From the IMG/VR virus record IMGVR_UViG_3300042879_001295, positions 1-20,242 of that record: DNA of 20,242 nucleotides. The stretch is one strand, 5' to 3'. Made by a program: the position numbers and the translations under genes. Position 1 is the stretch's first letter. Each line of letters begins with the position of its first letter. Below, piece after piece: positions 797 through 17,196 of the stretch. Origin of the DNA: a virus. The notes under the pieces are model-generated. The model had not been told where the DNA came from and did no database searches. It saw only the letters and a list, made by a program, of their open reading frames with translations.

Positions 797-1005
797 TGTC
801 CTCCCCTCCCGATGTCGATCACGGTGAAGGCTGCCAACTGCTGGCTGACGTAGTCCGCCAACTGCGTCGGCATGGCCATGATCGACAGCCCCGCCACGCC
901 GTCCTTGGTCGCGGCCTCGATGTCGATGCGACCGATGTTGTTGCGCTCGGCTGCGTGCAGGGCGCGGAACAGGGCCTGCACAAGACTGTCGTCTGCGGTG
1001 CTCAC
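793..1005 (-). CDS. Hypothetical small protein (70 aa)
   Basis: I do not recognise this 70-aa protein. It has a helical N-terminal half (residues 5-25), a middle segment that could form beta strands (25-45), and a Gly-rich end. There is no signal peptide, membrane segment or Cys motif. The GTG start at 1005 overlaps the stop of the upstream gene as GTGA, and a G-rich GAGGGGGAAGAA ribosome site precedes it. The stop overlaps the next start by four bases. The tight overlap on both sides and normal composition support it as a real gene. Confidence 0.75.
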   Translation of the reverse strand: MSTADDSLVQALFRALHAAERNNIGRIDIEAATKDGVAGLSIMAMPTQLADYVSQQLAAFTVIDIGRGGQ

Positions 1006-1202
1006 TTCTTCCCCCTCGCCCGCTTGGGCTTCAGCGAGTCGAGCGACACCCAGTCGCCGTTCTTCACCTGCTTATCGCCGATCAGCGCACCAATGCCGAG
1101 GCTCAGTTCGGCGAGGCCGAGGTTCAGTGCGGCGAGTTGGTTGCGGATCTGCTTCAGCATGTCCGCAACGTATTCCAGGTACTCCGTGTCGATCTGGTTC
1201 AC
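1002..1202 (-). CDS. Hypothetical small helical protein with basic tail (66 aa)
   Basis: This is an unrecognised 66-aa protein. Residues about 7-42 form a leucine-rich amphipathic helix (repeated LxxLxxxL spacing), which may mediate oligomerisation. The last nine residues are very basic (KPKRARGKK) and could contact nucleic acid. The start is GTG at 1202, overlapping the upstream TGA. The Shine-Dalgarno is AAGGAGG, seven bases before the start, and is the part of the upstream gene that encodes its terminal AAKEGG motif. The downstream gene begins in a GTGA overlap at 1005. Confidence 0.78.
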   Translation of the reverse strand: MNQIDTEYLEYVADMLKQIRNQLAALNLGLAELSLGIGALIGDKQVKNGDWVSLDSLKPKRARGKK

Positions 1203-1549
1203 TTGCCGCCCTCCTTCGCCGCGAGCGCGGCCTTGAACGCCTCACGAAGCGTGTCCATGCTGTTTCGGTTGCCCTCAATGTTGGCCGTGTACCACGGCAT
1301 CAGTAGCTCCTTGGGCATGTTCTCCAGTTCGCGGCGGCGGTCTCCGGCGATGATGTGGCACTCGAAGTCGCGCTTCCCAGCCGCGTCGAACGACTGGACG
1401 CAGATGGCGGTTTCCCACTCATGCCACCCGAAGCCCGTCAGTCGGTAGAGCACGCTGATCCAGCAATCGGGGTCGAGGTGGCGGATGAACCGCTCTTCGC
1501 CTTGTTCGATTTGCCAAGACGAGAGGTTGGTGTCGGCAACAAACGTCAC
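1199..1549 (-). CDS. Hypothetical protein with the shared AALAAKE C-terminus (116 aa), last member of the cassette array
   Basis: No family is recognised. The body (residues 1-95) looks like a compact alpha/beta domain rich in aromatics, with CW at 29-30, GFGWHEWE at 39-46 and MPWY at 84-87. It ends in FKAALAAKEGGK, the terminal motif shared with the genes to its right, but lacks the LRAIEAAA block that most of them carry. I chose the GTG at 1549. It forms a GTGA overlap with the upstream stop and has AAGGA six bases before it. A longer in-frame ATG at 1591 would sit deep in the upstream gene with no ribosome site. Confidence 0.8.
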   Translation of the reverse strand: MTFVADTNLSSWQIEQGEERFIRHLDPDCWISVLYRLTGFGWHEWETAICVQSFDAAGKRDFECHIIAGDRRRELENMPKELLMPWYTANIEGNRNSMDTLREAFKAALAAKEGGK

Positions 1550-1827
1550 AGCATATCCTTCGCCGCGAGCGCGGCCTTGAATGCCGACCACTCCTCACGC
1601 GACGGCTGCACGACGACGTAACGCAACCTTGCGTCGATGTCGTCCTCGACGTTCGCGGCGACTTCCCTCGCCGCCGCCTCGATCGCGCGGAGCCGGTCCA
1701 GTTCTGCTAGCCTCCGCTCCAGTTCGATGCGGATCGCCTTGTGACGACGACCACCATCGCGGTAGACGATGAGGGACTCGTCAAGAAGGTGCGCGGTCGT
1801 CATCGTGATGGGGTCAGGCCTTGCCAT
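1546..1827 (-). CDS. Cassette-array protein, paralogue of the next gene at its N-terminus (93 aa)
   Basis: The N-terminal 45 residues (MARPDP, then HLLDE, VYRDGGRRH) are closely related to those of the neighbour at 1814-2104. They are followed by the shared RLRAIEAAAR block at about 45-54, a unique stretch (55-80) and the common AALAAKD end. Function is unknown. The chosen ATG at 1827 has AAGGAGG six bases upstream, inside the 3' end of the preceding gene (14-bp overlap). The internal ATG at 1803 has no comparable ribosome site. A 382-codon open frame extends further upstream, but its extra part overlaps three genes and is Arg-rich, so I rejected it. Confidence 0.8.
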   Translation of the reverse strand: MARPDPITMTTAHLLDESLIVYRDGGRRHKAIRIELERRLAELDRLRAIEAAAREVAANVEDDIDARLRYVVVQPSREEWSAFKAALAAKDML

Positions 1828-2246
1828 TGCCGCCCTCCTTCGCCGCGAGCGCGGCGCGCAGGTTGCAGATTCTTGCGTCGTTCCGCAGATCGTGCAGAAA
1901 GCCGGTGTCCCACAGTGCGCGGTCGATTTGCCGCATGGCGTCCCTCGCCGCCGCCTCGATGGCGCGGAGGCGTTCCATTTGCGCGAACCTGCGGTCGAGT
2001 TCGCTGCGGATCGCCTCGTGACGACGACCACCATCGCGGTAGACGACGAGGTACTCGTCCAGCAGGTGGAAGTCGGACATGGTGCTCGGGTCAGGCCTTG
2101 CCATTGTCGCCCTCCTTCGCCGCAAGCGCGGCGCGCAGGTTGCAGATTCTTGCGTCGTTCCGCAGATCGTGCAGACAGCCGGTGTCCCACAGTGCGCGGT
2201 CGATTTGCCGCATGGCGTCCCTCGCCGCCGCCTCGATGGCGCGGAG
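1665..2246. repeat. Tandem duplication with 277-bp period
   Basis: The segment starting near 1665 is repeated 277 bp to the right. The part 1811-1969 matches 2088-2246 at 156 of 159 positions. The part 1741-1810 matches 2018-2087 at 56 of 70, and similarity continues more weakly to about 1665. The gene at 1814-2104 lies across both parts, which explains its mixed ancestry. Confidence 0.85.
1814..2104 (-). CDS. Cassette-array protein, apparent chimera of its two neighbours (96 aa)
   Basis: The first half (MARPDPSTM, HLLDEYLVVYRDGGRRH) matches the gene at 1546-1827. The second half, from RLRAIEAAARDAM to the AALAAKEGGNGKA end, is almost identical to that of the gene at 2091-2396. The DNA of the two second halves differs at only 3 of 159 positions. 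The gene therefore looks like the product of a tandem duplication or unequal crossover. The ATG at 2104 has AAGGAGG six bases before it and overlaps the upstream gene by 14 bp, exactly as at the next junction. Function is unknown. The cysteine in DARICNLR is the only Cys. Confidence 0.82.
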   Translation of the reverse strand: MARPDPSTMSDFHLLDEYLVVYRDGGRRHEAIRSELDRRFAQMERLRAIEAAARDAMRQIDRALWDTGFLHDLRNDARICNLRAALAAKEGGNGKA

Positions 2247-2396
2247 CCGACGCAACTCGGCGCGGGCGGCCAGAAGCTCGGCAGCGTTCTGCCGGACCTC
2301 TGCCCACGACGGGTCGCCCGTGGCAGCGCAGACGGCCAAGGGTATCGGTTTGCCGGCGGCAATCTCTCGCAGACGTTCGTCGGTCAGGTTGGTCAC
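2091..2396 (-). CDS. Cassette-array protein (101 aa), same C-terminal half as the preceding paralogue
   Basis: Residues 1-48 are unique (MTNLTDERLREIAAGKP..., then a helical stretch). Residues 49-101 carry the RLRAIEAAARDAMRQ block and the AALAAKEGDNGKA end, shared at 98% DNA identity with the gene at 1814-2104. The GTG start at 2396 overlaps the upstream TGA and has AAGGAG eight bases before it, inside the upstream gene's AAKE codons. Longer in-frame starts would read far into the Ea22-like gene. Function is unknown. The different N-terminus on a shared C-terminus fits a mix-and-match architecture. Confidence 0.82.
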   Translation of the reverse strand: MTNLTDERLREIAAGKPIPLAVCAATGDPSWAEVRQNAAELLAARAELRRLRAIEAAARDAMRQIDRALWDTGCLHDLRNDARICNLRAALAAKEGDNGKA

Positions 2397-2929
2397 TTCT
2401 CGTTCTCCTTCGCCGCGAGCGCGGCCTCCAGCGCGGAAAGGCTGAAAACGAACTTCTCCCATGGACCCTCGTTCGCGCAAGCCATGTACGAACGTGCCGC
2501 CGCTTCAATGGCGCGCAGATGACTAACCTCGTCGAGCAGCTTGATCTCTCGCTGAGCCGCTTCGATAACTGCGTGAACCGAAGCGCCCAGAAAGTCTGGA
2601 TGCATCTGGCGGTTGCGTTCCAAGCTGTCTGAAGTGTTGCAGCTTGCCAGTACTCCGCAGGCCGCAAGTTGCATTTGCAGCCTCTCGTTCTCACTTCGCA
2701 GCCGCTTGATCTCGGCGATCAGCGCGGGGGCGGCGTTGAGCAGTTCGACGGTGTACGCATCGTCGGCGTCGCACGCAGGGAACTGGCTACGAAGCCGCTC
2801 ACCTTCGTGCTCGACGTAGTAGCCGATGAACCCGAACGAGTATCCCGGCGGCGGCGTAACATGCACAAACGGCCCTTGCGTCGCAGCGGCGCGCAGAGTC
2901 TCCAGCTTGTCGATGTCGATGTCGGTCAT
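2393..2929 (-). CDS. Ead/Ea22-like phage accessory protein (178 aa)
   Basis: The N-terminus (DIDKLETLRAAATQGPF) and the later LLNAAPALIAEIKRLRSENERL coiled coil are the hallmark order of Ead/Ea22-like proteins from lambdoid and other phages. These are early accessory proteins whose molecular role is not established. Then follow a unique middle with HAVIEAAQREI, the array-wide LRAIEAAAR block near residue 138, and the AALAAKENEK end. The ATG at 2929 is one base after the upstream TGA and has GGAG seven bases before it. It is the longest member of the array. Family assignment rests on motif recognition, not a search. Confidence 0.82.
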   Translation of the reverse strand: MTDIDIDKLETLRAAATQGPFVHVTPPPGYSFGFIGYYVEHEGERLRSQFPACDADDAYTVELLNAAPALIAEIKRLRSENERLQMQLAACGVLASCNTSDSLERNRQMHPDFLGASVHAVIEAAQREIKLLDEVSHLRAIEAAARSYMACANEGPWEKFVFSLSALEAALAAKENEK

Positions 2930-2930
2930 G

Positions 2931-3251
2931 TCAGGTCTCCTTTGCCGCGAGCGCGGCCCTCGCTGCGTGCCACCCGCAATCGCAGTAGTCCCACAGCAAC
3001 TCGGTGCTCAATAGCGGGTTCCCTTCGCGGTGTCGAACAAAGGCACAAGTCGGGCAGTGTCCGCCCCATTCCATCCACGTTTTGGCCGCCGCCTCGATGG
3101 CGCGCAGCCGCTGAATCTCCTCAAGCGCAGTCAGGCAATCGAATGCCATGACTCGCTCATTCATGAGTTCGTCTCGGTTATCGGTTTCCTTAACCTCCCA
3201 AGCTTCAGCGTGATCCTTGAGCCGTTCAATCAGCTTGTCGATGTCGGTCAT
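2931..3251 (-). CDS. Cassette-array protein with a Cys cluster (106 aa)
   Basis: The N-terminus MTDIDKLIERLKDHAE begins like both neighbours upstream and downstream. The RLRAIEAAAKTWM block is at 48-60. The unique part has C66-x2-C69 and C90-x-C92 with H95 nearby, which could bind a metal. The protein ends in ARAALAAKET. The ATG at 3251 follows the upstream TAA by one base, with AAGGAG seven to eight bases before it. A longer reading frame (to 3425) exists, but its extra residues are Trp/Arg/Cys-rich shadow of the upstream gene. Function unknown; zinc binding is inference from spacing. Confidence 0.82.
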   Translation of the reverse strand: MTDIDKLIERLKDHAEAWEVKETDNRDELMNERVMAFDCLTALEEIQRLRAIEAAAKTWMEWGGHCPTCAFVRHREGNPLLSTELLWDYCDCGWHAARAALAAKET

Positions 3252-3252
3252 G

Positions 3253-3504
3253 TTAGGTCTCCTTCTTGTGCGGCGGTTCGTCAACATCGAGGACGGCAAG
3301 TGCCAACTCCATCGGGCTAGCCAAACCATCCTCCCACTTGCGAGCCACTTCCAATAGCGCAAGCAGTTTCGGCAGCAGGGCGCGCAGCCGCTGGTTCTCG
3401 GCACGCAGCCGATCCACTTCGTCAATCGACCGTTTCCACGCCGCGAGCATGGCCGCCACCATGGCGTCGGCTTGGTCCTCGCTCAGTTTGTCGATGTCGG
3501 TCAC
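3253..3504 (-). CDS. Small coiled-coil protein, first gene of the cassette array (83 aa)
   Basis: This 83-aa protein starts MTDIDKLSEDQAD, like the next gene, and has a leucine-rich coiled coil (about 25-53, with DRLRAENQRLRALL). It lacks the RAIEAAA block and the AALAAKE end, but its last codons (HKKET) still place AAGAAGGAG before the next ATG. The GTG at 3504 overlaps the upstream TGA as GTGA, with GGAG eight bases before it. It seems a reduced relative of the Ea22-like group. Function unknown. Confidence 0.8.
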   Translation of the reverse strand: MTDIDKLSEDQADAMVAAMLAAWKRSIDEVDRLRAENQRLRALLPKLLALLEVARKWEDGLASPMELALAVLDVDEPPHKKET

Positions 3505-4448
3505 TTGGCGGTCTCCGTGCCGAACGTCGACCGCTGACCCTTCGCGTCGACCAGCGTCATGCGACGCTTGCCCTCGTCGAACCGCAGCACTTGGTGCGTC
3601 CCGATCTGCGGGATCGGGAGCCACGACGCGCATCCAACGCGCTGCTCGTAGCCGTCGAGATCGTTGTCCCAGTAGTCGCAGTGCCAGCTGCCATCCGGCC
3701 GCGGCGTCGACGAGACGCACGTGCGGCACGACGGCGCCGGCAGCGCGGTGCCGTGGCACACATCGAAGAACCGGCACGGGTAGCGGTCGCCGTCGCGGCT
3801 CACCAGCACGCACGGCGGCGCTCCGGCGTCGAGCCGCTCCGGCGGCAGCTCGGCGTCGACGATGCGCTCGGCGCGCGCCCGCGCTTCGCGCGCCACCTTC
3901 GGCTCGAAGGCGACGATCTCAGTGTGGATGCGGTCGTCGTCCTTGCAGACGGCGACGTACAGCGCCTTCGTCAAGCCGAGGCCCAGCATGTACAGCTGCA
4001 TCTGCACAAAGTGCTGCCACTTCTCGCGCCGCACGCCGTTGTCAACCAGCCGGTCGAAGCTCTTCTTGCTGAACGTCTTGAACTCAGCGACGTGCTTCGT
4101 CTCGGGGTCATCGGGAACGCCGATGACCACGGCGTCGCAGCTGCCGCCGAGGTGGCCCCAGCCCGACACCAGTTGCTGCAGCGCCACGGCCTCGACGCCG
4201 ATGGACTGGAGGTCGTCGAGGATCCACGACTCCTCGCGCTCGCCGCGGCGGAACAAGCGCAGCATGCGCCCGTCGTGGTCCTCGCTCGCAGCCCAGCGGA
4301 ACGACAGCCACAGCCAGCGGTCGCACTCGTGGCCGATGACGCTCGCGCCCAGGTGGTCGCGACGCCAGTCCTTTGCCGTGGCACGGTAGTGGTGGTGGAC
4401 CATGCCGCCGACGACGGACATCTGCGGCGCTGGAAGGCGAGCTCCCAC
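3501..4448 (-). CDS. RecB/Cas4-like PD-(D/E)XK exonuclease with C-terminal Cys-rich zinc-ribbon-like tail
   Basis: The 315-aa protein has the PD-(D/E)XK core: GHECDRW at 39-45, D105 in CDAVVIG, E122-F-K124, and the QMQLYM helix at 149-154. Such proteins cut DNA ends in a metal-dependent way and sit in phage recombination modules. C42 together with C225, C231 and C241 resembles the Cas4/AddB-type Cys set that can hold an iron-sulphur cluster. A further C241-x2-C244, C257, C273 set looks like a zinc ribbon. The start is uncertain. I chose GTG 4448 because GGGGGAGG lies five bases before it. GTG 4454 overlaps the upstream stop but has the ribosome site abutting it, and ATG 4421 has none. It follows the DUF669 gene directly. 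Confidence 0.88.
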   Translation of the reverse strand: MGARLPAPQMSVVGGMVHHHYRATAKDWRRDHLGASVIGHECDRWLWLSFRWAASEDHDGRMLRLFRRGEREESWILDDLQSIGVEAVALQQLVSGWGHLGGSCDAVVIGVPDDPETKHVAEFKTFSKKSFDRLVDNGVRREKWQHFVQMQLYMLGLGLTKALYVAVCKDDDRIHTEIVAFEPKVAREARARAERIVDAELPPERLDAGAPPCVLVSRDGDRYPCRFFDVCHGTALPAPSCRTCVSSTPRPDGSWHCDYWDNDLDGYEQRVGCASWLPIPQIGTHQVLRFDEGKRRMTLVDAKGQRSTFGTETAK

Positions 4449-4450
4449 GC

Positions 4451-4951
4451 TCACCTCCCCCACGGCGGCGTGGCCTTGCGTGCCGGCGCGGCGACCGGTG
4501 CCGGCGCGGCCGGTGCCGGCGTCGCCGGCGCGTTGCGCTCGACGGCGCGGTAGGCGCGCACGTCGTTCCCCGCCTTGGTGCCCTTCGACGGGTCGGCCGG
4601 ACGCGCATCCAGCTTGACCTCGATCGTGGCGCCGACGAGCTCGTCGGTGTCGCCGACGAAGGACTTGCCGAGTGCCCGCGCCACCGCAGCCAGCTGCTGG
4701 CGCGCGATCGTGCGCGTCTGTTCGCTCGGGTGGTCGATGCACAGGTACGCCCACGCCAAGCGTCCGGCGTGGGCGGCGTGCCGCGCGGTCGTCTCCAGCG
4801 TCAGCTTGAGCAACTGGTCGTCGCCCTGCTTACGCTTCTGCAAGTCGGCGCCGGTGATCGTCACCTCGTACCAGCCGGGAGGCAGCGGCGAGTAGTCGCC
4901 GCCGCCGCGCGCGGGTTCGATGCCGTCGGTCGAGAAGTTGAGGTTCGCCAT
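4451..4951 (-). CDS. DUF669 family phage protein, probable ssDNA-binding or recombination accessory
   Basis: The 166-aa protein opens with MANLNFSTDGIEP, followed by LPPGWYEVTITGAD (about 23-36) and LLKLTLE (47-53). This is the usual beginning of DUF669 proteins. RQQLAAVARALG (85-95) and LVGATIEVKL (105-114) match the later family elements. Residues 141-158 are an Ala/Pro-rich tail, and the end is basic. DUF669 genes usually sit beside a Sak4-like ATPase and a RecB-like nuclease, as here, and are thought to act with ssDNA, though the exact role is not settled. The ATG at 4951 has GGAG nine bases before it, in a 24-bp gap containing two tandem copies of ACTGACC. Confidence 0.88.
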   Translation of the reverse strand: MANLNFSTDGIEPARGGGDYSPLPPGWYEVTITGADLQKRKQGDDQLLKLTLETTARHAAHAGRLAWAYLCIDHPSEQTRTIARQQLAAVARALGKSFVGDTDELVGATIEVKLDARPADPSKGTKAGNDVRAYRAVERNAPATPAPAAPAPVAAPARKATPPWGR

Positions 4952-4975: not shown

Positions 4976-5725
4976 TCAGTTGCGGGTAGCGGTCAGGGAG
5001 GCCTCGATCTGCTGCCAAGCGGCAGCCGGATCGCCGGCTGGGATCAGGATCTGGTCGGGCAGGCCGAAGCGGTTTTTGGCGGCGAACGCCGGGCGCTCGG
5101 TCGTGTGGAGCACGCGCGAGCCGTCTCCCACGCCGCGCTTGCGGTCGCCAGACTGCACGGCGGCGACGCGATAGTTCGCGAACAGGATCGCGTCGGCCCA
5201 GTCGCCGACGACGGCGCAGGCGCGCTTGTCCAGCCGCAGCTGGTAGCGGTCGTAGGCGTCCACCTCGGGACTCTCGAACCGAGTCACCTGCGAGTGCGCG
5301 ATCAGGATGATCGCCTTGCCCTGCTCGCGCAGCAGGTCGAAGCCGGACAGCAGCCGGCGCCACTCGCCGGCGGCGGCGACGTAGCCCTTGCCGTAGCCGA
5401 AGTCCTCGATCGACTTCTTGCCGCCCTCGGTGCAGACGTGCTCCCAGAGCATCGGCTCGAGTGCGTCGAGCGAGTCGAGCACTACCGTCTGGTAGTCGTT
5501 CGCTTCCTTGATGAGTGCGGCCATCTGCTGCAGCACGTCGTCGTACTTGGCCGCGCGCGGGAAGGCGTCGGCGTCGATGCGGCCGAGGCCGTCCTCGCAC
5601 TGCAGGAAGATCGGCTTCGGCGCGCAGGCCGCGAGCGTGGTCTTGCCGATGCCGGCGACGCCGTACAGCACGATGCGCGGAGCGCCGGTGGTGTTGCGAG
5701 AGATGTCCTTCAGAGAGATTGCCAT
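4976..5725 (-). CDS. AAA family ATPase, Sak4/AAA_24-like recombination ATPase
   Basis: The 249-aa protein has Walker A GVAGIGKTT at 22-30, Walker B VVLDSLDAL at 81-89 (D84), and a sensor-like strand ILIAHS at 140-145. This compact RecA-fold ATPase with the phrase YGVAGIGKTT is typical of the phage Sak4/AAA_24 group, which is linked to single-strand annealing or strand exchange. The following DUF669 and PD-(D/E)XK genes support a recombination or repair module. The ATG at 5725 comes 32 bp after the small membrane peptide gene, with only a weak GAGAACG ribosome site. This is the largest non-coding gap inside the early operon apart from its leader. Confidence 0.9.
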   Translation of the reverse strand: MAISLKDISRNTTGAPRIVLYGVAGIGKTTLAACAPKPIFLQCEDGLGRIDADAFPRAAKYDDVLQQMAALIKEANDYQTVVLDSLDALEPMLWEHVCTEGGKKSIEDFGYGKGYVAAAGEWRRLLSGFDLLREQGKAIILIAHSQVTRFESPEVDAYDRYQLRLDKRACAVVGDWADAILFANYRVAAVQSGDRKRGVGDGSRVLHTTERPAFAAKNRFGLPDQILIPAGDPAAAWQQIEASLTATRN

Positions 5726-7413: not shown

Positions 7414-10400
7414 CTACCGGCGCCGCTCGTCCTTGGCCGCGCGGCCCGTGACCGCTCCGCGCACCGTCGGATCCACCTGCCCCGACAGCACGTCGATCGC
7501 GTAGCCGGCCTGCTTCGGCAGCGGCACCGGCATGCCGAGCAGCACCAGCAGGCTGACGATGTCGCCGCCCGTGACGTTGTTCGGCTTGCCGTCCATCGCG
7601 CGCAGGGCGGCCTTGGCGCCGCGCTCCAGCAACGCGAACGGCGCCGGCGACGGCATGCGCCCGATCGTCTCGGGGCTGCCGTCGACGATGTTCACGACTG
7701 CTTCGGCGCTGCGGCCACCGACGCCGAACAGCGGCGCGAACGGACGCACCTGCGACTCGACAAGGATATCCCACGCCAAGTCGTCCCACCACTCGCCGTC
7801 CTTGTCCTCGTCGTCGTCAAGCGCACCCTGCATGGCTTTCATCAGCAGGGCCGACAGCGCGAACGGCAGGCCCCAGACGCCGAGGTAGATGCCGAGGTAC
7901 TTCAGCCGGCGGTTGCGGCTGCCGGCCTCTTGACGCACTGCGCCCATCATCCCCGACATCAGGTTGTGCATCTGGACGAAGAAGCCGCTGAACTTCGTCA
8001 GCAGCGCCTTCATCGGCGTCGTCACCTCGGCCGCGCTGCGATCTGAGGCGCGCAGCGATCCTTGGGTTCGCCTCACCACGCTGTCGGCGTAGGCCACGGC
8101 GAGCCTCTCGGCCACCTCGGGGTCTTCGTGCTTCTGGACCTCCAGCGAGTACGCCGCCTTCCACGTGATCTGGTCGCCTATGTGCTGCGTCATCGTCTGC
8201 AGGACGTAGGTAGAGTCGAGCAGGTAGCTCTCCCAGTCGCCGCGCAGGTTGATCGCTCGCTCAACGATGTTCTCGTCGGCGCGCAGCATCTTCTCCACGC
8301 GCTTCTGCGCGTCGCGCACTTCGTCGTTGCCGCGCCCGTTCATAAACGGACTCATCGACCGAACCGTGCGCCCCATCGCGCGCGGGTTGCGAGAGTAGTG
8401 CGCCGCAGCAGACATCATCGCGCCCATCGCGCGCGACGCGCCCTGGTCGGCGATCAACACCGTCGACGCAGGGAACAACTGCAGCGGGTTCTGGGCAGCG
8501 TTGATGACGTTGCCGAACATCGTCACGTAGGTAAACAGGCGGTCGAGGCGACGCATCAGCCTGCTCTGCGTCGGCGTGTCCGACTCGTCGCGCAGAGACG
8601 TCGTCAGCATCGCCGCGTTCTTCACCCATGGCGCAAGCAGGCGCGAACGCAACTGTGGGTTGATCGCGTCGATGCGGGCCTTGATCGCGCGCCGGTTGAG
8701 CAGGCGCTGCACGTCGACGATCGCCGGCCCCATCGCGGCGAACCGCGCCGACTCGCGGATGTGCCCAGGCAGCAGCGACAGCTGCAACGACAACGCGCGG
8801 AACGTGTTCGGGTCGCGACTCATGGTCATGCCGCGAGGCGTCTGCGCCAGGCTGGTGCGAGCCTCGGTCAGCATGTCCTCCACCTGCAGGTCGGCATCCT
8901 GCACCAGCATCCGGTCGGCCTTCGCCGGCATGTACCACCCGCGGTAGCTCGACGTCGTGCCGTCCGGCCAGACCACCCTGAACGGCAGCGGCTCCACCAC
9001 CTCAAACGGGTAGCCGAACGCCTCGACGTGCGCAGCTTGCAGGATCGGTCGCATCTCCTCAAACACGTCGCCGATCTCCTGCGCGGCGTCGAGGAACTCC
9101 TTCGTGATAGTGCCATCCCGCACCTTGTCGGCGAAGAACGAGTCCCACGCGCTGCTGTCCAGCGTGCGCTCGCCGGTCAGGGGGTCGATCGCTTGCGTGC
9201 CCCACTCACGGCGCGGGTCGAGTAGCAGCTTCTCCTTGTTGCTCAGGTTGCCCTGTGCGTGCAAGACGGCCATGAACAGCTCGGCCATGGCCGGCCCGTT
9301 CCTGCCCGTCAGCACCGCGCCACGCTGGCCGAACGTGTACGTGCGACTTGCGCCGACTTGCCACACGATCGGCTCGCTGCGCAGCATCGGCACCAGCCTC
9401 TGCAGGATGCGAGAAATGCGCGTGACGTAGGTGCGCTCTAGCTGCTCGGCCCTCGTCTCTGCGTCGGCGATTCGCTGAAACACGGCCTTGTGCCACATGC
9501 CTGGCATGCCGCCGTCCATCTGGATCGCCCAGTGCTCAATCCGCTTGCGCGCGGCCTTGCCGGCGAGCAGCTCGTGCGTGATCTTGTCCCACGTGGTGCC
9601 GCCGCCCGCAACGCCGACCGCCGTGCGCGTCGTGGGCGTCATGCCTGGGGCAGCCAGCAACCTCTCCTCCACCCATTCGATGGCTTCGCGGCGCCCGTCG
9701 ACGAGCGCGGTGCGCTCGGCTCGGCTGCGCTCCCACAGCATCTCCATGTTGTCGCGCAGGCCGCGCCATTCCTCGACGGTCAGGTCGCGGAAGTCGCCGG
9801 TGGCCGAGCGCATCATGCTCGGCAGCACGTCGCGCTCGAGCTCGGCGGCGAGGCTCTCGTTCATCTCGCGCACCATGCGCATTGCGTCGGCGAAGTGCGC
9901 AGGCTGCATCGGGTCGCGGCCGGTCGGCGCGTCCCGGTTCGGGTCGCGCAAGCCGTGCCCGGCCAGCACCGCGCGGCCGAGGTAGATCAGCGGCATTGTG
10001 TGCGTGCGCGCCAGTGCCTCGTCGTCCTTGGCAAAACGGCGGAACAGGTTGTTCCCGACGCGCAGCTCGTCTTGGAAGTCGGCCGCCTGCCGGGCCATCT
10101 CAGTCAGCACCAGCTGGCGGCGCTTGAGGTCGACGGCGCGCAAGAACTCGCCGGCCCTCAGTGCCTGCATCGTCTCGCGCGCCATGCGCGCCGCGGCGGC
10201 GTTGAGCGCGCGCGGCGACATCTCGCGCACCGTGCGCAGAGACAGGTTCGACGCGGCGGCCAGCCTCACCGCGGCCATGATCGTGCGCACGGTCTGCTCG
10301 CCGCTCTCCTGCCGGCGCAGTCTGCTGATCTGATCGGTCAGCTTGTTTGCTCGAGCACGAAGCGCGTCGCGCGCGGCGGCGTAGTTCTCGTCGTCGACGG

Positions 10401-13400
10401 CCAGCACCTCGATCTCGCGTGCCTGCACGCGCAGCCGGAGCTGCTCGTCCTCTAGCCGGTTGGCCTCGTCGAACGCTTCGCGGGCCGCATCGGCAAGCCG
10501 CCCCATCGTCGGGCTGGTAAGCACAGCACGCTGCAGGTGCAGGAGCTCGGTGGCGAGCACGCGGCGGCGCATGTCGTTGGCGATGGCGCGCTCAATGCGG
10601 TTGCGGCGGCTGTCGGAGTCGAAGAACTCGGGGTGCTCGCGGCGCACGCGGGCGTCAGTCCGCACGTCGATCATCTCCGTCGCGGTGGGCTGCTCAATCA
10701 GGTCGCGCACCAGCTGGTCGCCGGAGTCGTACCCGACCATCGCCGCCAGTTCGTCGGGCTGCTGCCCGCCGTCGGCTAGCAGACCGCGCAACTTGGCGAA
10801 CTGTTCCTCGCTCACCTTCGGCTTGTCGGTGCCGATGCCGAGCATCGCCTTCACGGCGGCGCGGTCGAGCTTCTGCCACTCGGCCGCCTGCGTGACCGTG
10901 CCGTTGCTGTTGCGCACTTGGCCTCGGCGCAGCCACAGCCGCGCGCGCTCGACGCGCTCGTTCGCCACATCTTGAGCGACCTCGCCTGCGATCTCCTCGC
11001 GCACCTCGCGCTGCTCCTTCTGCATCTCGGCGACTTCGCGATTGGCGCGCTCGATCGTCGACCTGCCGCCACGATCTGTCGCCTCGAGCAGCTCGTCCTT
11101 GGCGCGTTCCTTCGACAGCCACACCTCGGCCTGCAGTTCGTCCCACGCCGCCTCGGACAGGCCGGCGGCGAGCGCTTCCTCCCGCGTCTGGAACATCGTC
11201 CGCACTTCGCGCTCGACGGCGGCGCGCTCAATGTCCTCGTCGGCGGCGAAGATCCGCTCCATGACGCGGCGAGCCTCCGGCGACAGCACGCCGAGGTCTT
11301 CGCCGAACTCCTCGCGGAACAGCTCACTCAGCCGGCGACTCTGCTCCAGCAGGCCACGGTAGACGTCGCGGATCCAAGCGCCGATGCGCTCGAAGACACC
11401 GTGCAGTTCGGGAGACGGCGCTTCTCCGCGCGCGAGGAACTGCTCAAAGTGGTAGGCGAACCGCTCGTGGTACTTGCGGCGGGCTTCGAGGTCCATGCCG
11501 CGCCAGACGTCCACGGCGCTCTGCGTCGCGGTGGCCTGGACGCCGAGCCAGTCGAACATCACGCCGAGGTCGTTCACCAGCTCGGACGGGGCGTTGCCCT
11601 CGCCGACGATTGCGGTCGTCACTTCCAGCCAGTAGTGGCCGAACTCATGCAGCCACGTGCTGCGGTTGTTGCCGCGGTAGAGCGTGATGCGGTTGGCGGC
11701 GGGGCTGAAACTGCCGAGCGTGCGGCGGTCGGCGGCGAAGAACTCGCCGGGCGGCCGGACAATGGAGGATACGTTGCCGAGCTGCGTGTCGCCTCCTTTC
11801 CAGGTGGTGTTGAAGGCGTCCAGCAGCTGCACGTTGTGCGACGCGAAGAACGTCGCGATGTTTGCGGCGGCGATGTAGCCGTCGCGGAACTTGTCGACGT
11901 TGAAGATGGCGACCGACCTCGCGTTCGCTGCGCTACCGGCCCGGTAGAGCATCCCCATCGTGGGGCTGTTGCGAAGCCTGGACGTGGCGGCGTCGATGGA
12001 CACGAACCCCGCCGGACGGTTCTGGGTGTCGAGGAACAAGACGCCAGGGGCATCATCCCCCAGCAGCTTCTTGCCACGCTCGTACAGGTCCAAAGGATCG
12101 CGCACAGCGGTGCCGTCGGAGATCCGCTCTAGCTCGCGCTCCATCACCGGCACGGTCTTCCCGCGCGCGGCAGCTTCCACCAGGCCAGTCTCGACGGGTG
12201 ACCCATCGCCCAGAGCGTGCTCGTACCTGCCGTCCGAGCTGATCGCCATGATGCCACGCGGCTCGATCCCGCTGCCAAGCAGCAGACGGGCGCCGCGCGC
12301 CGCGACGGCTAGGTCTTCCTTGCTCAGTTTCGATTGGCCAGAAGGGTGGTTGTGGACGAACCAGGCGTACTTCGCCCCCTTGACGCGAACGACCTCGTGG
12401 ATCAGCGTCGCCCACGGGATAGACACCGAGTCGATGCCTCCCTTGAAGCCGGCCACGACCGCGAGCGGGGTGCCCTTGGCGTCGGCGAGCACGACGTCGA
12501 AGTGCTCGACTGCCTTGGTCTGGATCGAAGGCGCCATGGCTTGCGCGAGAGCCTTCGGGCTGTCGATCTTGCCCGCTCCCATCTGACGCTTGCCGGTGCG
12601 GACGAGCTTCGTCGACACCGGGAACTCGTCGAGGCGGGCGACGCCCTCGACCGTGTCGAGCGCATCGCGAGGCTCGGGCACCGGCGTAGTGTCCGTTTCG
12701 GGCGCCGCCTCGCTGCTCCGGTACTCGCCGGCGTCGCCTAGCTGAGTCGGTCCCTGGCTTCCGCTTCCTGGAACAGCCTCACCAGTCCGTCCGCGAACTG
12801 GTCCAACTGCTCGTCCGTCATCTCTTCCGTCAGTTCCCACGGCGCCACCGACCTGCCCTCCTGCGGCGCGGCGGGCTCGGACTGCGTCGACGGCTGCTTG
12901 GGCTTCGGCTCCGCGCCCTTGTTGGGCGGCAAGTTCGAGGAACTCATCGTCATAGCTCTTGTTGAGGTCGTTCTCGTCTTCGCCCTGGAGTTTGCTCCAG
13001 AGATCCTTCTCAGGATACCACAGGATCGCCTGGACGTCTGCATTCGTCACGACGAGGCCCAGCGCGGCCAGCCGCCTGCGGACGTCGTTGACGACTCGAG
13101 TGATCACTCGCCGGTCGGCGTTGCTCGGGACGTCGATCGGCTCAAGGTTCGCCTTGATGGTCTTGGCGATCTTGACCCAGCCCGGCTGGATCAGGGAGAT
13201 CGTCGTAGCGCCCTTGACGTTGTCGGTCGCCTCGCGTCGCTCGAACTCTACGGTCCTGCCGGCCGCCGCGTACTCGCGCTGCAGCCACAAGTCCTTCGGA
13301 CCCTTCACACCGAGACTCTTCTTCTCTGCTGCGCTCATCGCCTTCAGTTCGGCTTCCAGCGCGGCCTGCTTCTTCGGCGACAGCTTCTCGTACTTTGCGT

Positions 13401-16400
13401 CGATCTTGCGCTGCTGGCGCTCCAGTGAAGCCACGAGCCGGTTGAAGGCTTTGAGCTTCTCCTCCTCTGAGAGGCTCTCAAGGGTGGCGATGCTGTACTC
13501 GGCCTGCATCTCTGGCGTGACCGGCTGCTGCAGCAGCCTGTAGATCCCGTTCCATTCCGCGTACTCGCTGAGAGCGAAGTCAATGATCCGCTGCCGGAAG
13601 TCTGGGTCTTCCTCGATCCTGGTCGCGATGCTTTCAGGAAGCGAGTAGGACACGACCCCCTTCTTGCTGATCTCCCTGACCAGTCTCACCGAAGCCAGCT
13701 CCGGCGGCAGCTTGCGCTTTGCGGCCCGCACCGACTGGATAAGAGTCACCACTCGAGAGGAGCCCGTTTCGCCAGTGATGCCATCGCCGACGACGTCTCC
13801 GGTCATGCGGCCCCAGGTGCGGCGCATCCAGAGGTCGATGGTCACCGGGAAGAAGTTGCCCAGCAGGTTCTGCAGGAACCCTTGGCCAATCTTCGGGCCG
13901 AAGATCGCCGAACCGTTGACGATGTCGTTCTGCAGCCCGGTGACCTTGATCTGCTTGCCGAGTGCCTTGGACGCCTCAGCCATCACACTGCGAACGGTGA
14001 ACTCTTTCCGCGCAAACGCTTCTGCCCTTTCGAGAGACCCCAGCTTGGCGGCGAGCCGGTTGAACAACTTGAGGTTGTTGTTGATTGCGGTCTTCTTGCC
14101 TCCGTACTCGCCGGAAACGAACTTGCCAGTCTCGACGAATGCCTTGTAGACCGCTTCGGCGTACTTCGTGTTGTCGACGACCGTGTTGTTCTGCGAGGTG
14201 ATCGCGAGCGCAGCACGCAGAACGAACTGAGCGGCCTGCGACGGGTTGCGCTCTTTGGCGAATGCGGGGATCTTCCTTGCCGCCTCGTCGCTTGAGAGTT
14301 CGGGGTGGATCACCGCCGCCGCGGCGAGTGCCGACTCAATCGCGGTCGTGTACCAGTCGGCGGCGTTGCGGTTGGATGCCCGCAGGGCCGCGACCGCTTC
14401 GTCGGTCAGGTTCTTCGCGATCTCCTGCTCGATCCGTTCGAGCTCTTGGATCTTCTGCTCAAGGGCAGCGACGTCGGCGTTGTCCCCGGATGATGCGCGC
14501 AGCTTCTCCATTTGCTGCCTTAGCTGCTGCGCTTCTTCGTGCCGCTCCTCAAGGAGGACGCTGTCGATCTCCATCTTCCAGAACGAGAACGCCACCTCCT
14601 TGATCTGCTTGGCGACCTCGGACTTCTTCTGCTTCTTCTCCGGCTTCGGCAGCGCAGCGCTGTCGCCGTAGAGCACGTTGAGAGCCGACTGCGGCATCGG
14701 CGAGGCGGGAGCCTCCCCCATCGCGTCGCGGCTGCGAAGTTCTTCGCTCGCTTCTGGGCTGTACCCCCACTCGTGAATGCTGTTGGCGTCCGTGTACAGA
14801 TCGCCGGCGCGGACGGTTTGCTGCACAATCTGGTAGTTGCCGCGCAACGCAGACTCTCCGTGCAAGACTGCGTACTCCCTGTTCGGCGTCACCCAGTCGC
14901 CGGCGTTGATCGTGGCCTCGCTTGACGCAACGCCAGTAGGGATCGCACGGAATACGGTGACAGGCTGCTCTGGGTTCCCCTTCGCCGCGTTCACGACGGC
15001 GAAGGAGGCACGGTCCATGGCGTTGTCGCCGGTGCCGTAGTACCGAACCTGCTTGTCGCTGTAGACGTCGTCTGGGTACAGGACGGCGAGGTTGTGCAGC
15101 GGAGCTCCGCCGGCGCGGCTTGGAGCCCGGTGCAAGCCACGGTACTTGCTGTCGCGGCTGAAAAGCAAAGGCTGCTTCGCCTCTACCTCTCCCGCCTCCT
15201 GTTGCGTCGGCGCCGCATCCATCCGCCGCGTGAACGGCAACGGGTACTTGGCGACGAACTCGTGCGGAAGCATGTTTAGGCGCTTGGCCGTCGTCGTGAC
15301 GTAGGCCATTACCATCTCGGCCACCGTGTTGGCCTCACGCCGCGTGTAGCCGGCGCCGTCCATCAGGACGGGCAAGTAGCTATCCTTGACCTGCTGGCGG
15401 CTCTTGGCGATGGCTTCGTCGGCGGCCGCGAGCTTGTCTGCCTCGGCGCGCATCTGCTCGGCCTTCGCGCCCCTCCACTGCGCCCCAGCCTGCTCGCGCG
15501 CGATGGCTGCCTCGCTCGGCGACGCGACCTCAGGGTCGAGCGTGCCGTGCTGCAGCAGCTCATCGCCGAGCGGCGTGCCGGCGAGGTTCGCGCCGAAGTC
15601 GGCGAGGGGGATCGTCACATCGCCCACGGCCGTGCGTGCGCGCCCCAGGAGGCCGGGGGCCGCGCGCTCGAGCTGGTCGGCGATCGGCACGCGCGGCGTG
15701 CCGTCTAGGCGCGACTGCCTGTCTTGCTGCTCCTGCAGCTGATCCACCGCCGCGACGAGCCGGCGCGCGTCGAAATAGATCGTCTCGGCATCGGTGCCCT
15801 TCGTCGCCGTCGCCAAGAACTCGCGCAGCAGGTCGGGCGCGTCCGTGCGCAGCTTCTGCTGCGCGGCGGCGGCGGTCACGCTCGACAGCGTGTCCTTGCT
15901 GTCGGCCGCTTGTCGGGCGCGCTTGGCGTCCCAGTGCATGCGGTAGGCGGATGTGCCGGCCGACGGAATCAACCACGTCGCGGCGCCCGCGATGGCGGCC
16001 TCGCCGATCTTGCCCCACGCCTCGCCCCGCTCGAAGTCGGTGGCTGGAGCCTGCTCGCCCAGCCCTCGCCCGATCATGTTCTGCTGCGCCCACTGCTGGC
16101 CGACGATCTCGAAGTACTGCTGCGCGGCTTCCTCGCCGCCTTCGCCGGCGACGCCGAGCGCCGTGTTGATCACGGCGTCGGTGATGATCTTGCTCTTCGT
16201 CGGGCGCGCAATAGCGTCCATCGTGGCGTTCAGCGCCTGGCGCTTGACCACGCCCATGATGGGGCCGGTGAGCGGGCGGGCAAAGCTCGCCACCGTGCCG
16301 AGGGCCTCTATGCCCATGGCCGTCCAGCCGTAGGCCGCAGCCGCCGCGGCACTCGACTCGTGGTCGTAGCCCATCTCGCGGTAGGACCGATAGGCAGCTC

Positions 16401-17196
16401 CCGTCTCGCTGCGCTTCGTCGTGGAGAGCATCCCGTAAGTGAAGCCGCCGGCGAGGCCGATCTTCGTGCCGACCAGCGTGCCGATGCCTGGCACAAGACT
16501 TCCTACCCCGGCGCCCGTGGCGGCGCCGATCGTGGCCTCCTCCGCGCTCTCGCGGAACTGCACGCGGAACTGGCCGGCGTAGCGCGCTAGGCCGTAGAGA
16601 GGCATGCCCATGCCCATCTCGGCGTCGTCCTGGGGCAGCTTCTTCATCTCGCCGGCGAGCGCGTCGCGCTGCGTCTCCTGCTCCGGCGTGAGGGGGACAC
16701 CCTGCGCGACCATGTTGTCGAGCAGGCCGAGCTCCGTCGCCACGTAGCCGGCGCGGGCCGTCTGGGTGAGGCGCTCGAGGTAGCCGAGGTTGGCGATCTC
16801 GTCGCGCGCGACGGTGGCGTCCCGCTCGCGCTCCAGCAGCGCCATCTGCGCCTGCGACAACTTGCCGGCGACGAGCGCCTGCTGCTCGCGGTAACGCGCC
16901 ATCTGGCGCATCGCGTCCAGGTTCTCGACCGTCCATCGGAAGTCGGTGCCGAACTGCAGGCCGTAGGCTCTGGCCTCGGAGGCCAGCTTCGGGTCCGTCT
17001 CGATCGTCGCGCGCAGACGCGCCAGGAGCAGGCTCGCTTGCTCTTCCGTCTGCTGCTGTCCTAGCTGACGGAACTGCTCAACGAAGTCAGGCTGCGGTTC
17101 CTGCTGCGCGACGGGGGCAGCGACCGGCTGCTGCGGGAGCGCAGTCGGCTGCGGATCCTGCGGCAGGACGGAGACGGGAGGCGTGGTGCTAGTCAC
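7414..17196 (-). CDS. Giant polyvalent virion protein (3260 aa), T7 gp16-like ejection protein position, with ART, JAMM and zincin-like domains
   Basis: Order of parts: Pro/Gln-rich N-terminus (about 5-50); glycine-rich hydrophobic segment (about 222-256); ADP-ribosyltransferase-like domain (about 685-820, with H689, R750 in VFRAIP, E809 in HEWGY); a conserved domain found in polyvalent phage proteins (about 965-1135, GPKIGQGF near its end); low-complexity linker (about 1430-1520); RadC/JAB domain (about 1540-1660) with E1564 and H1615-x-H1617-x7-S1625-x2-D1628, a complete JAMM motif; zincin-like HEFGH at 1850-1854; long charged helices (about 1950-2350); hydrophobic segment 3100-3122 near the C-terminus. 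No lytic transglycosylase motif was seen. Gene order after the gp14/gp15-like proteins suggests that it is packaged and injected. The GTG start overlaps the upstream TGA. Function of the enzymatic domains is inference from motifs. Confidence 0.88.
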   Translation of the reverse strand: MTSTTPPVSVLPQDPQPTALPQQPVAAPVAQQEPQPDFVEQFRQLGQQQTEEQASLLLARLRATIETDPKLASEARAYGLQFGTDFRWTVENLDAMRQMARYREQQALVAGKLSQAQMALLERERDATVARDEIANLGYLERLTQTARAGYVATELGLLDNMVAQGVPLTPEQETQRDALAGEMKKLPQDDAEMGMGMPLYGLARYAGQFRVQFRESAEEATIGAATGAGVGSLVPGIGTLVGTKIGLAGGFTYGMLSTTKRSETGAAYRSYREMGYDHESSAAAAAAYGWTAMGIEALGTVASFARPLTGPIMGVVKRQALNATMDAIARPTKSKIITDAVINTALGVAGEGGEEAAQQYFEIVGQQWAQQNMIGRGLGEQAPATDFERGEAWGKIGEAAIAGAATWLIPSAGTSAYRMHWDAKRARQAADSKDTLSSVTAAAAQQKLRTDAPDLLREFLATATKGTDAETIYFDARRLVAAVDQLQEQQDRQSRLDGTPRVPIADQLERAAPGLLGRARTAVGDVTIPLADFGANLAGTPLGDELLQHGTLDPEVASPSEAAIAREQAGAQWRGAKAEQMRAEADKLAAADEAIAKSRQQVKDSYLPVLMDGAGYTRREANTVAEMVMAYVTTTAKRLNMLPHEFVAKYPLPFTRRMDAAPTQQEAGEVEAKQPLLFSRDSKYRGLHRAPSRAGGAPLHNLAVLYPDDVYSDKQVRYYGTGDNAMDRASFAVVNAAKGNPEQPVTVFRAIPTGVASSEATINAGDWVTPNREYAVLHGESALRGNYQIVQQTVRAGDLYTDANSIHEWGYSPEASEELRSRDAMGEAPASPMPQSALNVLYGDSAALPKPEKKQKKSEVAKQIKEVAFSFWKMEIDSVLLEERHEEAQQLRQQMEKLRASSGDNADVAALEQKIQELERIEQEIAKNLTDEAVAALRASNRNAADWYTTAIESALAAAAVIHPELSSDEAARKIPAFAKERNPSQAAQFVLRAALAITSQNNTVVDNTKYAEAVYKAFVETGKFVSGEYGGKKTAINNNLKLFNRLAAKLGSLERAEAFARKEFTVRSVMAEASKALGKQIKVTGLQNDIVNGSAIFGPKIGQGFLQNLLGNFFPVTIDLWMRRTWGRMTGDVVGDGITGETGSSRVVTLIQSVRAAKRKLPPELASVRLVREISKKGVVSYSLPESIATRIEEDPDFRQRIIDFALSEYAEWNGIYRLLQQPVTPEMQAEYSIATLESLSEEEKLKAFNRLVASLERQQRKIDAKYEKLSPKKQAALEAELKAMSAAEKKSLGVKGPKDLWLQREYAAAGRTVEFERREATDNVKGATTISLIQPGWVKIAKTIKANLEPIDVPSNADRRVITRVVNDVRRRLAALGLVVTNADVQAILWYPEKDLWSKLQGEDENDLNKSYDDEFLELAAQQGRGAEAQAAVDAVRARRAAGGQVGGAVGTDGRDDGRAVGPVRGRTGEAVPGSGSQGPTQLGDAGEYRSSEAAPETDTTPVPEPRDALDTVEGVARLDEFPVSTKLVRTGKRQMGAGKIDSPKALAQAMAPSIQTKAVEHFDVVLADAKGTPLAVVAGFKGGIDSVSIPWATLIHEVVRVKGAKYAWFVHNHPSGQSKLSKEDLAVAARGARLLLGSGIEPRGIMAISSDGRYEHALGDGSPVETGLVEAAARGKTVPVMERELERISDGTAVRDPLDLYERGKKLLGDDAPGVLFLDTQNRPAGFVSIDAATSRLRNSPTMGMLYRAGSAANARSVAIFNVDKFRDGYIAAANIATFFASHNVQLLDAFNTTWKGGDTQLGNVSSIVRPPGEFFAADRRTLGSFSPAANRITLYRGNNRSTWLHEFGHYWLEVTTAIVGEGNAPSELVNDLGVMFDWLGVQATATQSAVDVWRGMDLEARRKYHERFAYHFEQFLARGEAPSPELHGVFERIGAWIRDVYRGLLEQSRRLSELFREEFGEDLGVLSPEARRVMERIFAADEDIERAAVEREVRTMFQTREEALAAGLSEAAWDELQAEVWLSKERAKDELLEATDRGGRSTIERANREVAEMQKEQREVREEIAGEVAQDVANERVERARLWLRRGQVRNSNGTVTQAAEWQKLDRAAVKAMLGIGTDKPKVSEEQFAKLRGLLADGGQQPDELAAMVGYDSGDQLVRDLIEQPTATEMIDVRTDARVRREHPEFFDSDSRRNRIERAIANDMRRRVLATELLHLQRAVLTSPTMGRLADAAREAFDEANRLEDEQLRLRVQAREIEVLAVDDENYAAARDALRARANKLTDQISRLRRQESGEQTVRTIMAAVRLAAASNLSLRTVREMSPRALNAAAARMARETMQALRAGEFLRAVDLKRRQLVLTEMARQAADFQDELRVGNNLFRRFAKDDEALARTHTMPLIYLGRAVLAGHGLRDPNRDAPTGRDPMQPAHFADAMRMVREMNESLAAELERDVLPSMMRSATGDFRDLTVEEWRGLRDNMEMLWERSRAERTALVDGRREAIEWVEERLLAAPGMTPTTRTAVGVAGGGTTWDKITHELLAGKAARKRIEHWAIQMDGGMPGMWHKAVFQRIADAETRAEQLERTYVTRISRILQRLVPMLRSEPIVWQVGASRTYTFGQRGAVLTGRNGPAMAELFMAVLHAQGNLSNKEKLLLDPRREWGTQAIDPLTGERTLDSSAWDSFFADKVRDGTITKEFLDAAQEIGDVFEEMRPILQAAHVEAFGYPFEVVEPLPFRVVWPDGTTSSYRGWYMPAKADRMLVQDADLQVEDMLTEARTSLAQTPRGMTMSRDPNTFRALSLQLSLLPGHIRESARFAAMGPAIVDVQRLLNRRAIKARIDAINPQLRSRLLAPWVKNAAMLTTSLRDESDTPTQSRLMRRLDRLFTYVTMFGNVINAAQNPLQLFPASTVLIADQGASRAMGAMMSAAAHYSRNPRAMGRTVRSMSPFMNGRGNDEVRDAQKRVEKMLRADENIVERAINLRGDWESYLLDSTYVLQTMTQHIGDQITWKAAYSLEVQKHEDPEVAERLAVAYADSVVRRTQGSLRASDRSAAEVTTPMKALLTKFSGFFVQMHNLMSGMMGAVRQEAGSRNRRLKYLGIYLGVWGLPFALSALLMKAMQGALDDDEDKDGEWWDDLAWDILVESQVRPFAPLFGVGGRSAEAVVNIVDGSPETIGRMPSPAPFALLERGAKAALRAMDGKPNNVTGGDIVSLLVLLGMPVPLPKQAGYAIDVLSGQVDPTVRGAVTGRAAKDERRR
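12738..12953 (-). CDS. Candidate nested or frameshifted coding segment inside the giant gene (71 aa)
   Basis: In the +1 frame relative to the giant gene, an open frame runs from ATG 12953 (or ATG 12947) to a TAG at 12738-12740. Its product has a Lys/Pro/Gln-rich first half and an acidic amphipathic second half (ELTEEMTDEQLDQFADGLV). Over the last about 52 codons, 46 end in G or C. The giant frame over the same bases has about half G/C third positions and reads as Gly/Arg/Ala-rich low complexity. The ribosome site is weak (AAGAG). It may be an overprinted gene, a frameshift product, or the true end of a split gene. Confidence 0.45.
   Translation of the reverse strand: MTMSSSNLPPNKGAEPKPKQPSTQSEPAAPQEGRSVAPWELTEEMTDEQLDQFADGLVRLFQEAEARDRLS

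Follow-up and report, generated by a model that had tools for sequence, protein, structure and literature searches.

Why should consecutive and mostly unrelated small phage genes carry the same stretches of coding DNA? The question arises in an IMG/VR virus record (IMGVR_UViG_3300042879_001295), of which we analysed positions 1 to 20,242, a stretch of 20,242 nucleotides (nt) referred to here as the window. Its minus strand carries an array of six genes across window positions 1199-3251, transcribed in the order g1, g2, g3, g4, g5, g6 (with the starts of the g5 and g6 open reading frames, ORFs, corrected). All six contain an "end block" close to the stop codon and five also contain an internal "hinge block". 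The blocks themselves, the free pairing of modules around them, the breakpoints that fall in them between near-identical phages, their codon conservation and their Shine-Dalgarno spacing, all read from sequence, point to an answer that we consider quite probable: the blocks are cassettes of homology on which annealing-type recombination acts, and two-module accessory proteins are shuffled in the array.

Two coding blocks divide the array genes into modules

The array genes appear to follow a common plan, namely a start, a front module, the 26-nt hinge block, a back module, and the 20-nt end block together with the start of the next gene. The genes and blocks, listed in the direction of transcription, are:

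3253..3504, minus strand: gA, upstream of g1; front module N9; ends KKET, with AAGGAG at 3259-3264
2931..3251, minus strand: g1 (ORF); front N1, hinge, back C1, end block
3085..3110, minus strand: hinge block of g1, CGGCTGCGCGCCATCGAGGCGGCGGC
2937..2957, minus strand: end block 1 (g1/g2), one synonymous change
2393..2929, minus strand: g2; long front, hinge (HLRAIEAAA), back C2, end block
2901..2929, minus strand: start block ATGACCGACATCGACATCGACAAGCTGGA, a third shared stretch, at gene starts
2496..2521, minus strand: hinge block of g2
2405..2425, minus strand: end block 2 (g2/g3)
2091..2396, minus strand: g3; front N3, hinge, back C3, end block
2224..2249, minus strand: hinge block of g3
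2112..2132, minus strand: end block 3 (g3/g4), one synonymous change
1814..2104, minus strand: g4; front N4, hinge, back C3, end block
1947..1972, minus strand: hinge block of g4
1835..1855, minus strand: end block 4 (g4/g5)
1546..1827, minus strand: g5; front N4, hinge, back C4, end block (KD variant, AAGGAT)
1670..1695, minus strand: hinge block of g5
1555..1575, minus strand: end block 5 (g5/g6), ends AAGGAT
1199..1549, minus strand: g6; one module without hinge, end block
1211..1231, minus strand: end block 6 (g6/gN), GCCGCGCTCGCGGCGAAGGAG
1002..1202, minus strand: gN; starts from the last end block; product matches front module N8

The six genes finish in the 20-nt end block GCCGCGCTCGCGGCGAAGGA, which throughout conforms to GCCGCGCT(C/T)GCGGC(G/A)AAGGA and codes for AALAAK(E/D). 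With up to three mismatches allowed, the window gave six matches, whereas dinucleotide shuffling predicts 0.17, and none of 100 shuffles reached six. An earlier sequence-only reading of the window had described the genes as ending in this motif. The shared block was confirmed, but the motif lies near the C-terminus rather than at it, with one to seven residues following (the tails after AALAAK are ET, ENEK, EGDNGKA, EGGNGKA, DML and EGGK). That reading was also right to place AAGGAG ahead of the next start at every junction, but not at a constant 6-8 nt: from the end of AAGGAG (AAGGAT from g5 to g6) to the next start we measured 7, 8, 7, 7, 5 and 8 nt, that is, 5-8 nt. Across the array family, the Shine-Dalgarno-to-start spacing is 4-8 nt where block genes are consecutive, and the end block supplies a correctly placed Shine-Dalgarno sequence at every junction.

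The hinge block, CG.CT.CGCGCCATCGAGGCGGCGGC, is 26 nt long and codes for RLRAIEAAA in g1-g5 (HLRAIEAAA in g2), as had been noted. The start block, 26-31 nt long, is 93-100% identical between front modules that otherwise differ. The parts between blocks are mostly unrelated, again as described earlier, the exceptions being the back module common to g3 and g4 (98.9% nt identity) and the front module common to g4 and g5 (83%).

Front and back modules pair freely in related contigs

Relatives were found by searching viral contigs with one array protein, with both blocks as codon-free DNA patterns, and with Sak4, an annealing protein encoded next to the array. Modules were clustered by blastn with a coverage requirement, which replaced a global alignment with free ends that had lumped everything together. 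After removal of duplicates, the set comprised 33 hinge genes from 18 contigs. These fell into 20 front clusters and 19 back clusters, and all 33 pairings were different. Among gene pairs, 23 shared only the front and 27 only the back, while none shared both; in 8 of the 27 back-sharing pairs, the backs were 100% identical at the nucleotide level behind unrelated fronts. Front module N3 occurred with five backs, and N4 and N5 with four each; conversely, C3 stood behind five fronts, C1 and C4 behind four, and C6 behind three. Label shuffling gave 1.3 expected double-sharing pairs against zero seen, and zero arose in 24% of shuffles (P = 0.24). On these sequences, front and back modules appear not to be linked; the data fit free pairing and do not show avoidance.

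Window genes have counterparts in these contigs. Back module C1 of g1 (HCPTC...CDCGW), possibly a zinc knuckle, also stands behind three other fronts, in L019, L220 and L237. The front module of g2 is 95% identical to that of a gene in L092 that has a different back, and the relative of g6 in L215 holds the equivalent place, after a C4 gene. The upstream gene gA, which has AAGGAG in its own end, 7 nt ahead of the g1 start, without the full end block, is 95% identical to L215 and L218 across 126 nt, with divergence starting 12 nt into the hinge (CGGCTGCGCGCC). At the other edge, gN is 93.8% identical to L214 over 211 nt; in L214, N8 runs on into a hinge and a back module.

One gene, L238:40-516 (array strand), is a three-part chimera composed of the tail of an N4 front, the start of C4, the long g2 middle and a C2-like back, and therefore more than two modules can be joined. 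A gene rich in alanine (IDN..ASQRILAHLHEGRL...), whose Ala/Asp repeats vary greatly, lies beside or inside arrays (L215:3075-3722, L219, L058 and L238, array strand) and also finishes in an AALAAKE or AASAAKE block. Two contigs with arrays, JADCJE010000143.1 and JADCJE010000176.1 (L237 and L238), belong to a Phycisphaerales metagenome-assembled genome; their DNA is phage-like and broken inside the repeat array, and they are probably mis-binned phage, or else a hint at the host. No near-identical annotated phages were found, and tblastn with g2 gave a single weak match among phage records.

Close relatives diverge at the blocks

Contigs L215 and L218 are 100.0% identical over 3,828 bp, up to a point 6 nt past the hinge, beyond which they are unrelated except for one 432-bp stretch. 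L219 and L218 are 99.7% identical over 3,332 bp starting inside an end block, just before which they are unrelated. By its sequence, L218 thus resembles a composite of two phages, one contributing the left part and the other the right, and each of its joins carries a block. L019 and L216 are 93% identical as far as the array start, differ in content through the array, and are alike again (97.5%) from precisely the last end block onwards. L216 and L153 differ only in the front module, which is bounded by the hinge and by a 27-nt start block that both contigs have, and between L019 and L058 the change starts at the AAGGAG of the upstream gene. The L218 joins were found in two metagenome assemblies (99.94% over 6.4 kb), as were those of L219 and L216, and the L215 join is present in three contigs. 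This recurrence of the main joins in independent assemblies argues against chimeric contigs.

The blocks are conserved as DNA

Across 28 different modules, column identity in the end block is mostly 0.9-1.0 and drops to ~0.3 just outside; lower columns (0.6-0.8) occur at its first two positions, at the third base of codon five and at its last positions, which vary. The hinge, compared among 16 genes with neither module shared, is likewise mostly at 0.88-1.0, less at a few wobble bases, between flanks at ~0.3. Codon identity reaches 0.96 in the end block against 0.38 expected (1,000 simulations, maximum 0.44), and 0.79 in the hinge against 0.34 (1,000 simulations, maximum 0.40). In a codon-free search, with any synonymous codon permitted, the hinge-family matches all read GCCGCGCTCGCGGC(G/C)AAGG. 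In unrelated phages with the same terminal AALAAKE and a Shine-Dalgarno sequence, codons vary, with a per-position identity of 0.29-0.54 at four of the five codons.

The sequence-only reading had proposed that genes or domains turn over at the blocks and had suggested a comparison of synonymous sites. Turnover was confirmed, with its boundaries in the blocks, as seen in the breakpoints and the free pairing among related contigs, and synonymous variation there is far below expectation. Neither a fixed gene order without turnover nor ordinary synonymous variation, the outcomes that it had named as contrary evidence, was found. Its explanation, that the block is kept because it supplies translation initiation, did not survive. 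The hinge lies far from any start and is conserved in like manner, and the end block is no less fixed over the 14 nt ahead of AAGGAG than at AAGGAG; the conservation of the blocks at the DNA level is therefore not due to translation initiation. The common factor left is recombination homology, maintained by selection or by copying at each exchange.

Alternative explanations

Illegitimate joins could instead form anywhere, the survivors being those in frame at a tolerant coiled coil or at gene ends, with the blocks conserved for the protein and for the Shine-Dalgarno sequence. Gene-edge joins do generally survive selection, and this explanation is preferred for most mosaic joints in one analysis (PMC3029335). 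Structure prediction is also compatible with it: in the AlphaFold2 model of g4 (predicted local distance difference test score, pLDDT, 86), the hinge lies midway in one long helix, a swap-tolerant place that would let the halves be exchanged with the fold intact (the g1 model is of low confidence, pLDDT 67.5). However, codons and not just residues are fixed in both blocks, the AALAAKE ends of unrelated phages use varied codons alongside a Shine-Dalgarno sequence, and the near-identical pairs examined have their joins in a block to within a few nucleotides. We therefore regard this origin as unlikely.

It is very improbable that the end block is merely a translation signal, comprising a Shine-Dalgarno sequence and a GCCGC/GCGGC hairpin, with swapping incidental. 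AAGGAG does stand 4-8 nt ahead of the next start at junctions, and the isolated 14-mer folds at -8.4 kcal/mol, but within the surrounding sequence the hairpin does not outperform shuffles (z -0.24 to -1.41), and at two of the four junctions tested another fold is predicted; the hairpin was accordingly rejected as the conserved feature. Moreover, the hinge is equally fixed with no start nearby, and breakpoints at hinges refute a translation signal as a complete account.

Even less probable is a site-specific recombinase acting on the palindrome GCCGCG-CT-CGCGGC in integron or shufflon style. The palindrome has a perfect 6-bp dyad, and in L215 (~3693) and L218 (~3657) on the array strand its central CT is inverted to AG (giving AASAAKE), as if 14 bp had flipped. 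Yet its outer bases vary, the hinge behaves alike with a different and non-palindromic sequence, and none of 19 records, a set that includes fragments, contains a phage integrase or serine resolvase domain (PF00589, PF00239). That a single gene was simply duplicated in tandem and then diverged, for which a 277-bp repeat running from hinge to hinge (1664-1940 and 1941-2217) might speak, is scarcely credible, given that the repeat halves differ in age (C3 copies 98.9%, N4 copies 83%), that N4 copies in other phages are at least as close to either window copy as the two window copies are to one another, and that what lies between the blocks is unrelated from gene to gene and turns up again in other phages.

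A recombination model and the genes that could serve it

Under annealing-type recombination, short identical blocks would pair when two array phages, or a phage and incoming phage DNA, meet in one cell, and everything beyond the block would be exchanged. A crossover at the hinge would create a new front/back protein in frame, whereas one at the end block would lead to whole genes being gained, lost or replaced, with the AAGGAG of the block keeping any next gene translated. Annealing-type recombinases tolerate short, imperfect homology. The window encodes a candidate machinery directly upstream of the array:

4976..5725, minus strand: Sak4-like single-strand annealing protein (Pfam AAA_24, E 3e-51; phrog_124, E 5e-45)
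4451..4951, minus strand: single-stranded DNA-binding protein (SSB)-like partner of Sak4 (phrog_6015 ssDNA-binding protein, E 2e-16)
3501..4754, minus strand: ORF with a Cas4/RecE-type recombination exonuclease (phrog_1990, E 3e-82); true start probably nearer 4400

Sak4 together with its SSB has been demonstrated to perform single-strand annealing and recombineering (PMC5928155). We infer that the joins are made by homologous or annealing-type recombination, here through the Sak4-SSB-exonuclease set, and that the blocks are retained by selection, for recombination or for Shine-Dalgarno use. Another array phage, G003, has RecT and a RusA-like resolvase.

Several points weigh against this model. 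The evidence for exchange comes from comparing sequences only, and 20-26 bp is short for RecA-type recombination. Sak4 was considered as a universal array partner and rejected: it was confined to the window phage and its duplicate record, two others giving weak matches, and therefore no single recombinase is tied to the arrays. In an all-against-all comparison, 128 of 169 ends of array similarity fall inside blocks, which make up 17% of the sequence, a figure that is partly biased because conserved blocks lengthen alignments and the pairs are not independent. Repeated copying, as well as selection, could fix the codons. Finally, the array proteins have no good match in Pfam, NCBIfam, PHROG or PADLOC.

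The PADLOC models, which cover known anti-phage defence, gave no match to the array proteins, and a PDB profile search with them found nothing. The array products may be helical, variable early proteins for which diversity is the benefit; that they act on host targets is our guess. The link that the sequence-only reading drew to Ea22 through an Ea22-like member, g2, was not upheld: none of the eight members of the g2 group matched an Ead/Ea22 Pfam family at E<=1, and hhalign against lambda Ea22 gave a probability of 0.2% (E 0.33).

Elsewhere in the window, the closest relatives of the Sak4-like protein (4976-5725) among phage records are in Synechococcus phages (49%), and the window phage has T7-type internal virion and tail proteins. 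A 3,260-aa protein at 7414-17196, with phrog_9880 and with ParB-C-like and RadC-like (DNA repair) segments, is unusually large and probably an internal virion protein that is injected.

A second block and comparison with known systems

The coupling of AALAAKE to a following start extends beyond the hinge family. Among viral ORFs outside this family that end near an AALAAKE coded with AAGGAG, 37 of 38 have a start 4-12 nt downstream, compared with 13 of 42 where the peptide is internal. The commonest version, GCCGCCCTGGCTGCGAAGGAG / GCCGCCCTGGCTGCGAAGGAGGNGTGA, is itself a fixed block present in 15 contigs (L044, L059, L075, L086, L099 and L251 among them), and one of these contigs resembles phages of Pseudomonas, PS-1 included. 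It has different genes on either side and re-paired neighbours: L059 and L099 have the upstream side in common and not the downstream one, L086 and L251 share only the upstream side, and L075 and L099 have the downstream gene in common behind different upstream back ends. The 27 identical columns of this block follow from the way it was searched for; the re-pairing does not. A second, different block thus appears to do likewise in Pseudomonas lambda-like phages. Finding the design again in a second group of phages suggests that it is widespread and that certain C-terminal motifs owe their conservation to the DNA.

The closest precedent is the boundary sequences of lambdoid phages, short stretches of conserved DNA where modules meet and are exchanged by homologous recombination, although such sequences could not be found at most mosaic borders (PMC3029335). 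As in that model, modules of the array meet in short conserved DNA that both parents possess. In contrast to lambdoid boundary sequences, the array blocks lie inside coding sequence and are repeated five to six times per array, the hinge joins domains within a gene, and the end block doubles as a Shine-Dalgarno sequence. In cluster I mycobacteriophages, Island3 genes 67 and 68 share their last 18 codons at the nucleotide level, with gene gain or loss through recombination of one copy with the other (PMC3029335), but this is a single whole-gene case, with no hinge, array or module pairing over many phages. An old dispute asks whether mosaicism arises by homologous recombination at boundary sequences or by illegitimate recombination filtered by selection. 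In the array, the boundary sequences are conspicuous, occur many times over and mark the crossovers between stretches of phage genome that are identical apart from them, and the dispute therefore becomes a simple recoding experiment.

The start-associated and extended start-associated sequences (SAS/ESAS) of cluster K mycobacteriophages are repeated, contain a ribosome-binding site and stand, almost without exception in the same orientation, just ahead of where small genes that are unrelated to one another start (PMC3203893). The array end block is likewise repeated, contains a ribosome-binding site and lies 4-8 nt from starts, but the likeness is only that of a functional analogue. The SAS sequence GGGATAGGAGCCC differs from the array end block GCCGCGCTCGCGGCGAAGGAG, and SAS are not described as coding for a shared C-terminus or as swap points and have no intragenic partner block. 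For T4-type phages, Arbiol et al. in 2010 reportedly proposed that mobile regulatory cassettes (promoter early stem-loops) shuffle early genes by homologous recombination; unlike the array blocks, these cassettes are intergenic, consist of a promoter and a stem-loop, are non-coding and entail no in-gene domain shuffling.

Lambda Ea22 is a small early protein with a coiled coil and non-homologous C-terminal domains (mosaic), and all members end in K/R-G-E (PMC10834534, PMC7093339), the K-G-E end of lambda Ea22 being called of unknown significance (PMC7093339). In lambda (ea22 at L236:1048-1596), this end is coded by AAAGGAGAG / AAAGGAGAGTGA, which is Shine-Dalgarno-like and is followed by an unannotated open frame. 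Because no gene is annotated within Shine-Dalgarno distance after ea22, the parallel is a lead only. The architecture is alike, with varied C-terminal domains behind a coiled coil and a Shine-Dalgarno-like code for the last residues, whereas no sequence relation was detected and Ea22 is a single gene, not an array. We entertain, tentatively and leaning slightly to the contrary, the broader idea that many phages build early proteins from interchangeable modules through coding linkers that are at once homology, hinge or tail, and ribosome-binding site, a counterpart of exon shuffling, with AALAAKE and K/R-G-E as the imprint of the linkers.

A comparable design is that of the HsdS subunit of type I restriction systems, in which variable domains are swapped at conserved helical segments acting as recombination sites. 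The proteins are unrelated to those of the array, and HsdS shuffling takes place within one locus, often with inverted repeats and an invertase. In the open-access literature searched, we found no description of coding linkers that serve at once as recombination homology, hinge or tail, and Shine-Dalgarno sequence, or of free pairing of half-genes in phage arrays. The array displays domain-level shuffling that produces many small proteins, and compared with the lambdoid precedent it represents a strong new form of the old boundary-sequence idea.

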